The notes beneath the pieces were generated by a model that was not told where the DNA came from, ran no database searches, and worked only from the letters and a program-made list of their open reading frames with translations. From Candidatus Mediterraneibacter merdavium (GTDB taxonomy: Bacteria; Bacillota; Clostridia; Lachnospirales; Lachnospiraceae), in the NCBI GenBank assembly GCA_019118545.1, contig DWYT01000148.1, forward strand, positions 1 to 44,228: 44,228 nt of DNA, given 5' to 3'. Of this stretch, positions 25,898-44,104 are shown one piece after another; the stretch's first letter is position 1; every line of letters starts with the position of its first letter. Made by a program: the position numbers and the translations under genes.

Positions 25898-25982
25898 ATT
25901 ATTCACTGATTCCTATACTATTCTATAGCATTTCCTCTATTTTAGCAATGTTCTTCTGAACCATTTACCTTTCCCGCAGCAG

Positions 25983-26337
25983 CTCAGCCATTTGATTCGG
26001 CAGCTTTCCGCTTTATACAGTACGGGAAGCGGTCAATAAATTGGAAGAAAGAAGCCGTCAGCGGCGGGGAGGGTTGAGCTGTGACTTGGAAGGAATCTGA
26101 CGGAATATCTTACCGGACTGAGGAGTGGTTGTTAGGCAGTGTGAGGGGATTGTCTGAGGCGAAGCCAAGTTGCCCCTCACACTGCTTCGCTTTTAAACAA
26201 CTTCTCAGTCCGTTAGATATTCCCAGATTCCGGAACGGAACAGCGAGACCTCTCCCTGACCGCTGACCGCTTCTTCAAATTTATCGGAGGCTTCCAGACG
26301 TTACTACAAAGAACTGCCATCGAATCAAATGGCTGAG
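25983..26337. repeat. Foldback element E1 (355 bp, near-palindromic)
   Basis: Perfect 17-bp terminal inverted repeats (25983-25999 and 26321-26337; core CAGCCATTTGATTCG) enclose arms that pair imperfectly along their whole length (for example CGGACTGAG...CTCAGTCCG, GAATCTG...CAGATTC) up to a perfect 13-bp stem (26136-26148 / 26173-26185). The 24-nt tip contains TTGTCTGA, GGC-GAA-GCC and AAGTTG. A 4-bp GCAG is present on both flanks (25979-25982, 26338-26341). The element ends 4 nt from the MoxR stop codon. Related elements occur at 43151-43505 and 43489-43790. It encodes no convincing protein. Not a family I can name. Confidence 0.8.
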
Positions 26338-26341
26338 GCAG

Positions 26342-27853
26342 TCAGCGTATCCCGGTATTAAGCATGGACTCCACTTCATCCATCTGTCTTATGACATCCT
26401 TCCGCCTCTCGTCAAAGAGAAGTCCTTTATTGTACCTGTAATATAGATCGCATCCGTTTTCCTTAATGAACCACACACTGTAATAGTTGGCGTTGAGTTC
26501 TGTGACAAAGGCCACCATCTCCTGACTTTCTCCGAAAGCATCCTCAAGGAATAAAAAGGCGTTTTCCAGCATCTTTGAGGTGCGCTCTGTCAAGGCGTCA
26601 AGCTCTTCTTTCTCCTTTTGGAACAGCGCTCTCACCCGTTCAAATGCTTCGCCCTCCGCAAAGAGTTCTCCCTTAAGCTCTGATACAAACCGTGTCAGCG
26701 TATCGGTCACGCGCATCCATATCTTTTCCTCTTCTTTAGTCAGCAGTTCCGCGCGCTTCTGTTCTTCCATCTCCCTCTCCGCCGTCTCACGCACATCTTC
26801 CAGCATCAGATTCGTCTGGTTATCGCGGTAACGGACAAGATATTCATACAGCTTCGCCACGTACATATCCTGACTGCTGCAGTCCCGGAACATCCCGCCG
26901 AGACTTCCGTTTAAAAGACTGATAATACTCAGATGCTCGTCAAAGGCGGCGCTGCGTATCTTTTGCAGCGTGAGGGCGTCCCATTTACCTTCTAAAATAT
27001 CCTCCACCTTGTAGTCTGTCTTATATTTATAGTAGAGTTCCAGATAATTGGCGAAATCCTTTGCTGCGGCCCTGTGCTGGATATACTGGTACACCACGTC
27101 ACGATCCACTGTTTTCCCCAACTCTTCGTACACCTGTATGATCTGAGACAGATCCTCCCATCCTCTCGCCGTGGCGAACAGCCTGCCGTCCACTGTATTT
27201 TCCACGCGGTAAAAGTTCTCCCTGCGCAGCTCCAGATATGAAATGACCGCCGGGTGGACGCCCTGTCGGTAAGCATACTCCTTCCACACCGGGAAGTCCG
27301 CCTCCACGTCGATCTTCTTCAAACGGTCAAGTGTGACCACGTCAAACTCCCTGACAGACTTGTTATATTCCGGCGGATTGCCCGCCGCCACGATGATCCA
27401 TCCTTCCGGCACCTTGTGCGTACCGAATGTTTTCCCCTGAAGAAACTGGAGCATGGCGGGCGCCAGTGTCTCTGACACACAGTTGATCTCATCGATAAAC
27501 AGGATTCCCTCCCGCATCCCGGTCTGCTCCATCTTGTCATATACAGAGGCAATGATCTCGCTCATGGTATACTCTGTCACCGAGTACATTTTCCCGCCAT
27601 ATTCCTTCTCCTTGATAAAGGGCAGTCCCACCGCACTCTGCCTTGTGTGATGGGTGATGGTGTACGCCACCAGACCGATCTTTAATTCCTTCGCGATCTG
27701 CTCCATGACCTGAGTCTTCCCAATCCCCGGCGGCCCCATGAGAAGCACCGGGCGCTGCCGGATAACCGGAATCTTATATTCCCCGAAAGCATCCTTTAAA
27801 AGATATGCCTCTACTGCATCTTTAATCTCTTGTTTCGCACGTTTGATATCCAA
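26342..27853 (-). CDS. MoxR-type AAA+ ATPase (module 1)
   Basis: 503 residues. An AAA+ domain with Walker A GPPGIGKT (40-47), Walker B ILFIDEIN (about 115-122) and sensor-1 WIIVAAGNPPEYNKS, plus a second half of about 230 residues that is helical and charged (EERE/AEREMEEQKRAELLTKEEEK). MoxR ATPases act as chaperones that remodel or load cofactors into partner complexes together with VWA-domain proteins. The VWA gene (27879-29390) lies 25 nt upstream on the same strand, forming an operon. The extra C-terminal half is longer than the 300-330 residues of plain MoxR proteins. The foldback element E1 directly follows the stop codon. Confidence 0.85.
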   Translation of the reverse strand: MDIKRAKQEIKDAVEAYLLKDAFGEYKIPVIRQRPVLLMGPPGIGKTQVMEQIAKELKIGLVAYTITHHTRQSAVGLPFIKEKEYGGKMYSVTEYTMSEIIASVYDKMEQTGMREGILFIDEINCVSETLAPAMLQFLQGKTFGTHKVPEGWIIVAAGNPPEYNKSVREFDVVTLDRLKKIDVEADFPVWKEYAYRQGVHPAVISYLELRRENFYRVENTVDGRLFATARGWEDLSQIIQVYEELGKTVDRDVVYQYIQHRAAAKDFANYLELYYKYKTDYKVEDILEGKWDALTLQKIRSAAFDEHLSIISLLNGSLGGMFRDCSSQDMYVAKLYEYLVRYRDNQTNLMLEDVRETAEREMEEQKRAELLTKEEEKIWMRVTDTLTRFVSELKGELFAEGEAFERVRALFQKEKEELDALTERTSKMLENAFLFLEDAFGESQEMVAFVTELNANYYSVWFIKENGCDLYYRYNKGLLFDERRKDVIRQMDEVESMLNTGIR

Positions 27854-43098: not shown

Positions 43099-43150
43099 AA
43101 ATGCCGCCCCAAACGCCAGACCGACTTCTGAAACACCTTTGCAACTATCC

Positions 43151-43505
43151 GCCATTTAATTCAGGGATATTTCTTTATAAGAATATCCGGAAGCGGAGAA
43201 TCATTTTAGAAGTGCAGTTAGCGGTCAGGGGTGGGGATGCGCGTTTCTGTTCCGAGCCGGAATCCGGGAGCGGACTAAAGGACTGCGGGACTGTTTAAGG
43301 ACAAAGCGGCACAATGGGGAACTCATTTCATTCAGACAACCCCATTATGCCGCTTAACAACATTCCCTTATCCCTAAGCCGCTCCAACAGATTCCTCTAA
43401 GTCACAGAAACCCCGCATCCCCACCCCTAACCGCTGACTGCTTTCTAAAATTTATCGACTGCTTCCTACTACTATACAAAGCGAAAATGCCCCAATCAAA
43501 TAGGC
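43151..43505. repeat. Foldback element E2 (355 bp)
   Basis: Same length as E1 (355 bp) and alignable with it along both arms: the 3' arm shares CCTxACCGCTGAC, AAATTTATCG, GCTTCC, ACAAAG and AATCAAAT-G with E1. The ends are GCCATTTAATTC (43151-43162) and AATCAAATAGGC (43494-43505). The apical stem is AAGCGGCACAATGGGG (43304-43319) / CCCCATTATGCCGCTT (43340-43355), 15 of 16 pairs. The tip is the reverse complement of the E1/E3 tip form: AACTCA...TTCAGACAA. No credible ORF. Confidence 0.75.
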
Positions 43506-43790
43506 ACAAATACAGCCTGTTTCGAAAGTCTTTCGGAGAGGAGTGCAGTACCGGGCAGGCGACTTCGCAGGGGTAATAGTAAAACTTAAGATCCCGGATT
43601 CGGCCCTTAGGGATTTTGGTGGAATTGTCTGAGGCGAAGCCGAGTTGTCCGCCGAAATCCCTGTTTTTCGGACGGATTCGGGATCATTAGTTTTTCTTGT
43701 GCCCCGAAGCGGAACCAGACTGGCATCGCACTCCTTGTAGAATAGATCTTCGTAAATAGAGCCTGTTTTCGTCTATTTGACTTAGAGGGC
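43489..43790. repeat. Foldback element E3 (about 300 bp), abutting E2
   Basis: Ends are TCAAATAG (43496-43503) and CTATTTGA (43773-43780); the left end is shared with the right end of E2. The apical stem AGGGATTTTGGTGGA (43609-43623) / TCCGCCGAAATCCCT (43648-43662) has two T-G (U-G) pairs and no mismatches. The tip (43624-43647) is 23/24 identical to that of E1. The lower arms diverge from E1 and E2. A fragment AATCAAATGGCTGA of the E1 end type follows at 43798-43811. Confidence 0.7.
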
Positions 43791-43848
43791 GTTAGTGAAT
43801 CAAATGGCTGACTGTTACCACTTTTTCAATAAAATCTTCGACAACCCA

Positions 43849-44039: not shown

Positions 44040-44085
44040 AATGACGCCCGCAGCAGGGAAATGTTTTATTCCCTACTGCGGGCGT
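44040..44085 (-). terminator. Terminator of the wall-anchored protein gene
   Basis: ATGACGCCCGCAG-AGGGAA pairs with TTCCCT-CTGCGGGCGTCAT over about 20 bp; on the minus strand it lies after the stop at 44105. The T-run is poor, so this is a likely rather than certain terminator. Confidence 0.6.
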
Positions 44086-44104
44086 CATTGTCCTACAGGA
44101 CAGT

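Follow-up and report, generated by a model that had tools for sequence, protein, structure and literature searches.

MITEs and foldback elements of bacteria (e.g., RUP, BOX, NEMIS, and ERIC) are dispersed, non-autonomous repeats with terminal inverted repeats (TIRs) and target duplications. Integron attC sites and the subterminal hairpins of IS200/IS605 elements are recognized as folded single-stranded DNA (ssDNA) by extrahelical features and not by the sequence of their stems. In PMC3733652, REPs are described as intergenic repeats that form inverted dimers, lie near the 3' ends of genes, and supply stop codons. REP proteins read folded ssDNA in a strand-specific manner via single-stranded features, according to part of PMC8266576; attC and IS200/IS605 hairpins are mentioned in excerpts of PMC8266576 and PMC6006769.

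The family of long hairpins described here shares TIRs, target duplication, non-autonomy, and dispersal with bacterial MITEs and foldbacks; unlike these, it has covarying stems, constant internal loops, and a tip that is common beyond the genus. The likeness to attC and IS200/IS605 hairpins is putative and concerns the recognition of folded ssDNA; no integrase or tnpA is linked to the family. With the REP/REPIN systems, as portrayed in portions of PMC3733652, PMC8266576, PMC6006769, and PMC3116915, it shares high-copy intergenic imperfect palindromes, inverted dimers, a location near 3' gene ends to which the repeats supply stop codons, and bulge or loop single-strand features that could tell strands apart. 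REPs as outlined in these portions measure 20 to 40 bp and carry a GTAG/CGTC foot, whereas the present elements are 300-bp foldbacks with their constant feature at the tip; in addition, their stems are fully variable between subfamilies, no RAYT is linked, and one subfamily has TIRs with an 8-bp duplication. By analogy, the family may work like a REP. That one tip recurs on otherwise unrelated hairpins of distant bacteria suggests an unnamed family of mobile hairpin elements with a putative reader protein; no Rfam family matches it.

Foldback elements of the window and their paired stems

The window (i.e., the whole stretch of 44,228 nucleotides analyzed) contains the following features (coordinates, strand, description).

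About 25976-26344, +: E1, single A-type foldback including TIR-like ends (inverted repeats, fold, and related own-genome copies over most of its length)
25983-25999, +: left arm end of E1, CTCAGCCATTTGATTCG, 100% complementary to 26321-26337
26321-26337, -: right arm end of E1, partner of the left arm end 25983-25999
26098-26227, +: core of E1 matching covariance model R1 (96.8 bits, E 5e-22; E1 lies outside the seed)
26150-26172, +: constant tip of E1, mini-stem GGC/GCC (pattern match)
About 43141-43818, no single strand: composite E2+E3, a divergent pair of hairpins (first tip on -, second on +; outer TIR-like ends; divergent pairs occur elsewhere)
43148-43505, -: E2, C-type hairpin (z -13.0; R1 99.6 bits at 43264-43389, -; seed member)
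43320-43339, -: tip of E2, mini-stem AT/AT (tip pattern)
43489-43811, +: E3, B-like hairpin (z -8.0; R1 107.8 bits at 43574-43701, +; seed member)
43625-43647, +: tip of E3, mini-stem GGC/GCC (tip pattern)
43797-43818, -: outer TIR of the composite E2+E3, GAATCAAATGGCTGACTGTTAC (inverted-repeat ends)

A sequence-only reading of this DNA had reported three long imperfect palindromes at these places, and the folds bear it out: the ssDNA fold of E1 (-99.5 kcal/mol) has a z score of -11.1, the RNA fold of E2 one of -13.0, and the fold of E3 one of -8.0, with none of 100 shuffled sequences equally stable in each case. E1 has a perfect 17-bp terminal inverted repeat and nested arms. The limits had to be redrawn, since the ends of E1 extend to about 25976-26344, and E2 and E3, which had been taken as separate elements, overlap and are better read as a single composite sharing a TIR-like stretch. 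The tips of E1 and E3 fit TTGTCTGA..GAA..AGTTG, which matched 0 of 100 shuffled sequences, and the proposed constancy of the tip around a covarying short stem holds for all three elements (GGC/GCC in E1 and E3; AT/AT in E2, on the - strand). Model R1 recovers E1, E2, and E3, of which E2 and E3 are seed members and E1 is not. Elsewhere in the window, a near-perfect hairpin, GACGCCCGCAG..CTGCGGGCGTC, at 44040-44095 just past a tRNA gene resembles an ordinary terminator.

That the arms differ between copies and yet remain paired is supported by an alignment of 30 copies, hand-picked across subfamilies, in which 93.7% of the cells at 36 pairs were standard pairs, compared with 61.6% in shuffled and 37 to 42% in slid controls, the pairing score being somewhat favored because the structure was taken from the same alignment. 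Cells changed on both sides numbered 392 (116 shuffled; 73 to 93 slid), and the covariation score was 0.896 (0.261 shuffled; 0.14 to 0.17 slid), both far above the two controls. Within the six subfamilies with five or more copies (81 of the 107 gathered copies), both sides had changed to another Watson-Crick pair in 375 cells; the other cells comprised 300 G.T, 199 A.C, and 340 other single changes. Constant blocks lie between the stems (i.e., TTAG..CTTA, GTTA opposite TGCTTTTAG, and the tip), and RNAalifold pairs TC with GA beneath a TGA bulge at the tip. The constancy of the tip arises partly by selection of the copies, because the tip served to gather and align them; the stems played no part in this step. 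The earlier reading had seen selection on RNA or ssDNA structure. Covariation, the copies in other genomes, the occurrence of the tip on unrelated stems outside the genus, and the absence of an Rfam match strongly support that a single-strand fold with constant loops is maintained; the RNA nature of the folded molecule stays putative. With dozens of copies per genome, the family offers natural material for asking whether it is selection or correction between the arms that keeps long palindromes paired.

Copies, arrangement, and ends in the genus

Copies in other genomes, to which the sequence-only reading had looked for support, were found with R1 in 48 of the 58 genomes of the genus, its own included, under strict filters that drop weak matches; with the same filters, none were found in the remaining 10, including the one-contig genomes G017 and G027. 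In the own genome (G000), which has at least 60 copies, R1 matched all 60 candidates scored, and the same was true of G025 and G081 (60/60 scored, at least 60 each). Of 398 genomes sampled from the phylum, each with eight candidates scored, only five passed R1 at E 1e-5, the own genome being one of them. Used as a blastn query against the own genome, E1 gave 68 rows of matches, a count that covers both strands because the query is palindromic; a BLAST search of E1 against plasmids gave no match. The tip pattern matched 45 times in the own genome (21 + 24), at least one match (on C111) being without a complementary mini-stem, and the reversed pattern matched 0 times. In G025, a contig starts less than about 160 bases from 14 of the 39 tips, which suggests that the hairpins probably break assemblies and are therefore undercounted.

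Many copies are single. Among neighboring tips within 1.2 kb in the loci analyzed, 18 of 19 are inverted, as the close units of REPs are, and all 18 of these are divergent; 1 of 19 is on the same strand. The model also reveals divergent pairs in Sedimenticola, Polaromonas, and Ralstonia loci and in two viral contigs. A filter requiring at least 16 of 23 bases at both ends retained 13 TIR-bounded stretches in G000 and dropped other copies. Of the eight single A-type copies in this set, six show a target duplication at exactly 8 bp, in which at least 7 of the 8 bases match; across all eight, mean identity at 8 bp was 0.81 versus 0.23 for cross pairs, and it was 0.34 at 7 bp and 0.35 at 9 bp. The duplication was not seen in E1 (4/8 bases), in L003 (2/8, with ends apparently out of register), or in the five longer TIR-bounded stretches of G000, and the TIR plus duplication expected of a MITE is thus found for A-type singles only. 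Singles measure 358 to 369 bp and four composites 753 to 861 bp.

The A-type TIR is GTAACAGTTCAGC, and the ends of G036-type elements differ from it. The ends of the eight singles of the genus begin with GCAG, GTAA, GTAT, GTGA, etc., and none with the GTAG or CGTC foot of REPs. At one orthologous gene end, G036 carries an element, G004, G002, and G025 carry other sequence, and G000 has none by eye. All examined copies are intergenic and at least some stand directly behind a stop codon; one G036 element begins immediately past it. The elements are thus also mobile repeats, one subfamily having the MITE hallmarks of TIRs and an 8-bp duplication, which goes beyond what had been claimed; their copies are dispersed and patchily distributed, form divergent pairs, and keep constant loops on changing paired stems.

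Several composites, such as L014 and L022, have a G+C-rich mini-hairpin, GCGCGGC..GCCGCGCC, between their two hairpins, which is absent from E2/E3. A count of tip orientation against flanking genes in 81 copies (right flank inward in 29 and outward in 20; left inward in 14 and outward in 16) was set aside, as it relied on boundaries that proved misplaced toward the inside of longer elements.

The constant tip beyond the genus

The tip follows the formula TTGTCTGA-NN-GAA-N'N'-GAGTT, in which the mini-stem of 2 to 3 bp covaries. Scanning public genomes (among the matches listed) and viral contigs with this pattern yielded tips in many groups. Among the matches listed, 138 non-redundant sites outside the genus had 30 bases on each side, and 61 of these had a complementary mini-stem. 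A flanking stem score of at least 8 was reached by 33 of the 61 (shuffled mean 1.4, maximum 5 in 200), as opposed to 0 of the 77 sites, among the same matches, lacking a complementary mini-stem (shuffled 0.7); by eye, several of the 28 complementary sites below the cut resemble bulged hairpins and were left uncounted. The tip-bearing records include Herbaspirillum, Polaromonas, Undibacterium, Ralstonia, Sedimenticola, Sphingobacterium, Bacteroides, Selenomonas, and Clostridium, which we take to represent Firmicutes, Proteobacteria, and Bacteroidota. In two Polaromonas loci (L118 and L135), identical 15-base flanks enclose the mini-stem GCC/GGC at one site and GGC/GCC at the other, so that only the stem of the tip has been cleanly exchanged. 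Of 48 non-redundant viral pattern matches with enough flank, 46 had no complementary mini-stem and were taken as chance.

In all 142 complementary tips (76 in the genus and 66 others, the latter among the matches listed), the pair that closes the GAA loop is pyrimidine-purine, and GC-GAA-GC is the commonest form outside the genus (40/66 among the matches listed). The oligonucleotide d(GCGAAGC), described in an excerpt of PMC6582339 as an extraordinarily stable DNA hairpin, has the same pyrimidine-purine closing pair on its GAA loop. GCGAAGC is absent from passages of a 2008 stem-loop survey (PMC2267715). In open-licence PMC, neither the tip string nor the outer palindrome occurs in any paper, a 12-base tip string occurs in three papers that seem unrelated by title and the start of the abstract, and nothing relevant appeared on MITEs with Mediterraneibacter or Lachnospiraceae or on structured RNA.

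It is possible, and we propose it tentatively, that these repeats form a pan-bacterial, undescribed class of mobile ssDNA hairpins whose defining feature is a single tip, TTGTCTGA-(stem)-GAA-(stem)-GAGTT, read by a widely conserved putative protein, with the stems and ends beneath it free to diverge; repeats of Firmicutes, Proteobacteria, and Bacteroidota that look unrelated would then be one system. If one tip does label hairpin repeats in several phyla, many intergenic palindromes that are now anonymous would belong to a single family, and the missing recognition protein would become a concrete target.

Hairpins outside the genus are bounded by short palindromes of the TTTGCTTACTTTC..GAAAGTAAGCAAA type (L206 7100-7700, L237 6380-6900, and L173 303-339), apparently a second shared module. 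The Herbaspirillum hairpin had no BLAST match in phages; in plasmids it matched seven records, through the neighboring palindrome only.

Candidate partners and competing explanations

We lean slightly toward regarding the family as non-autonomous, REP/MITE-like mobile hairpin elements ("giant REP-like foldbacks") whose folded single strand is recognized at the tip by a putative protein. A single strand exposed by replication, repair, or cruciform extrusion would fold by its arms into a rod capped by the compact YGAAR mini-hairpin, and a putative trans-acting protein would recognize the constant internal loop TTGTCTGA/GAGTT beside it and thereby copy, insert, or protect the element. Arms would stay paired because unpaired copies go unrecognized, perhaps with the help of arm-to-arm DNA correction. 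Flank GC skew indicated no replication-strand bias (positive in 12/29, 12/28, and 11/27).

Covariation around constant internal loops would also be expected of a structured non-coding RNA or 3'-UTR element, in which the tip-sense strand is transcribed, folded into a rod, and bound by protein at the tip, with dispersal being secondary. On the tip-sense strand, pooled isolated mismatches were G.T in 349 and A.C in 143 cases, which favors one strand acting as a single strand, and the excess recurs in the own genome (108:55), in genus relatives (174:53), and in public genome and viral loci (67:35, including some of the genus), as it does within subfamilies (300:199). However, it shrinks to 183:145 (p 0.04) when distinct events are counted and to 126:104 (p 0.17) among singletons, some of which may be old because subfamilies span species; another 68 singletons are double Watson-Crick changes. 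G.T accounts for just 4.8% of standard pairs; RNA compensation via G.U predicts more, and arm co-correction or selection on a DNA hairpin therefore fits better. Judging from these substitutions, the folded form is more likely to be DNA than RNA. The genes beside 36 hairpin loci outside the genus are diverse and ordinary, with any one Pfam family limited to at most 2 of 71 scanned proteins (124 in the loci); they reveal no protein partner, which counts against the favored reading, and no recurring neighbor, which counts against an RNA. None of the 4,227 Rfam families matches the elements: the window yields only a tRNA, in keeping with the claim that no named family fits, and 18 loci outside the genus yield only a 5_ureB_sRNA elsewhere in L181. 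When E values as high as 10 were admitted for two stretches, the miRNA, lncRNA, and sRNA matches fell far under thresholds; ROOL, GOLLD, and HEARO are among the families that did not reach the gathering threshold. We therefore regard the RNA explanation as unlikely. Two specific candidates were discarded: Skipping-rope RNA (no Rfam match, one unrelated paper) and a kink-turn at the tip, whose flanks, by eye, are without the pairing that k-turns need.

Much less still can be said for membership in the known REP/REPIN system, in which RAYT tyrosine transposases move the repeats. We consider it very improbable even though the elements are intergenic, imperfect hairpins that form inverted dimers and adjoin stop codons, and although, outside the genus, 17 of 24 host genomes or records contain a Y1 gene. 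No GTAG foot exists in the eight single copies with both ends, the elements span 300 to 860 bp instead of 20 to 40, and no RAYT gene flanked by the repeat was found: the pattern and the model detected a tip at 0 of 20 loci with a long Y1 gene in the genus (about 2 kb on each side where the contig allows), and outside it a tip is near 1 of 24 Y1 loci, 1.2 kb away (L507). With foot, size, and partner all failing, the family is not a GTAG-REP. Moreover, G072 has 40 copies of the element and no Y1 match at E 1e-5. Across 58 genomes, the element was present in 32 of 37 with a Y1_Tnp frame (at least 240 codons) and in 16 of 21 without (p 0.47), and 20 Y1 loci of mostly IS200 size had no convincing tip. 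Eleven of the 24 loci outside the genus (L495, L497-L500, L502-L506, and L510) have a frame of 240 to 270 codons, a RAYT-like size, and tipless fetched flanks.

A further explanation is that the elements are ordinary MITEs of a DDE transposon, their hairpins being a by-product of long TIRs and their arms changing together by template switching without selection. The TIR GTAACAGTTCAGC with its 8-bp duplications, the recurrence of this TIR on further short palindromes in the genus, and the clustering of double changes on adjacent pairs (48 versus 19.6 shuffled) agree with it; single changes cluster as well (182 versus 113), however, and clustering thus does not decide. This explanation, which we hold to be improbable, leaves the non-palindromic constant loops and the same tip on other stems outside the genus unexplained, and the ends of related hairpins differ in other genomes. 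IS66, the only DDE family sought, was chosen because the ends begin with GTAA and the duplication is 8 bp, as in IS66 elements; no IS66 (PF03050) transposase was found in G000, whose genome is 89.6% complete.

Two candidates for an autonomous element were rejected. A search for TIR pairs 1 to 3 kb apart gave one 1.5-kb candidate in G004 with no evident transposase inside (by eye), and the half copy at the C2 locus of G000 is decayed and adjoins a frame that is AraC-like by eye. A 68-codon repeated frame beside a G036 element falls within a module that is palindromic (50 rows of matches in G036) and was judged non-coding. The short genus palindromes that carry GTAACAGTTCAGC without the tip hairpin include L373 326-490 (G036:C15:20225-20389), and several of their end pairs are about 163 bp apart.
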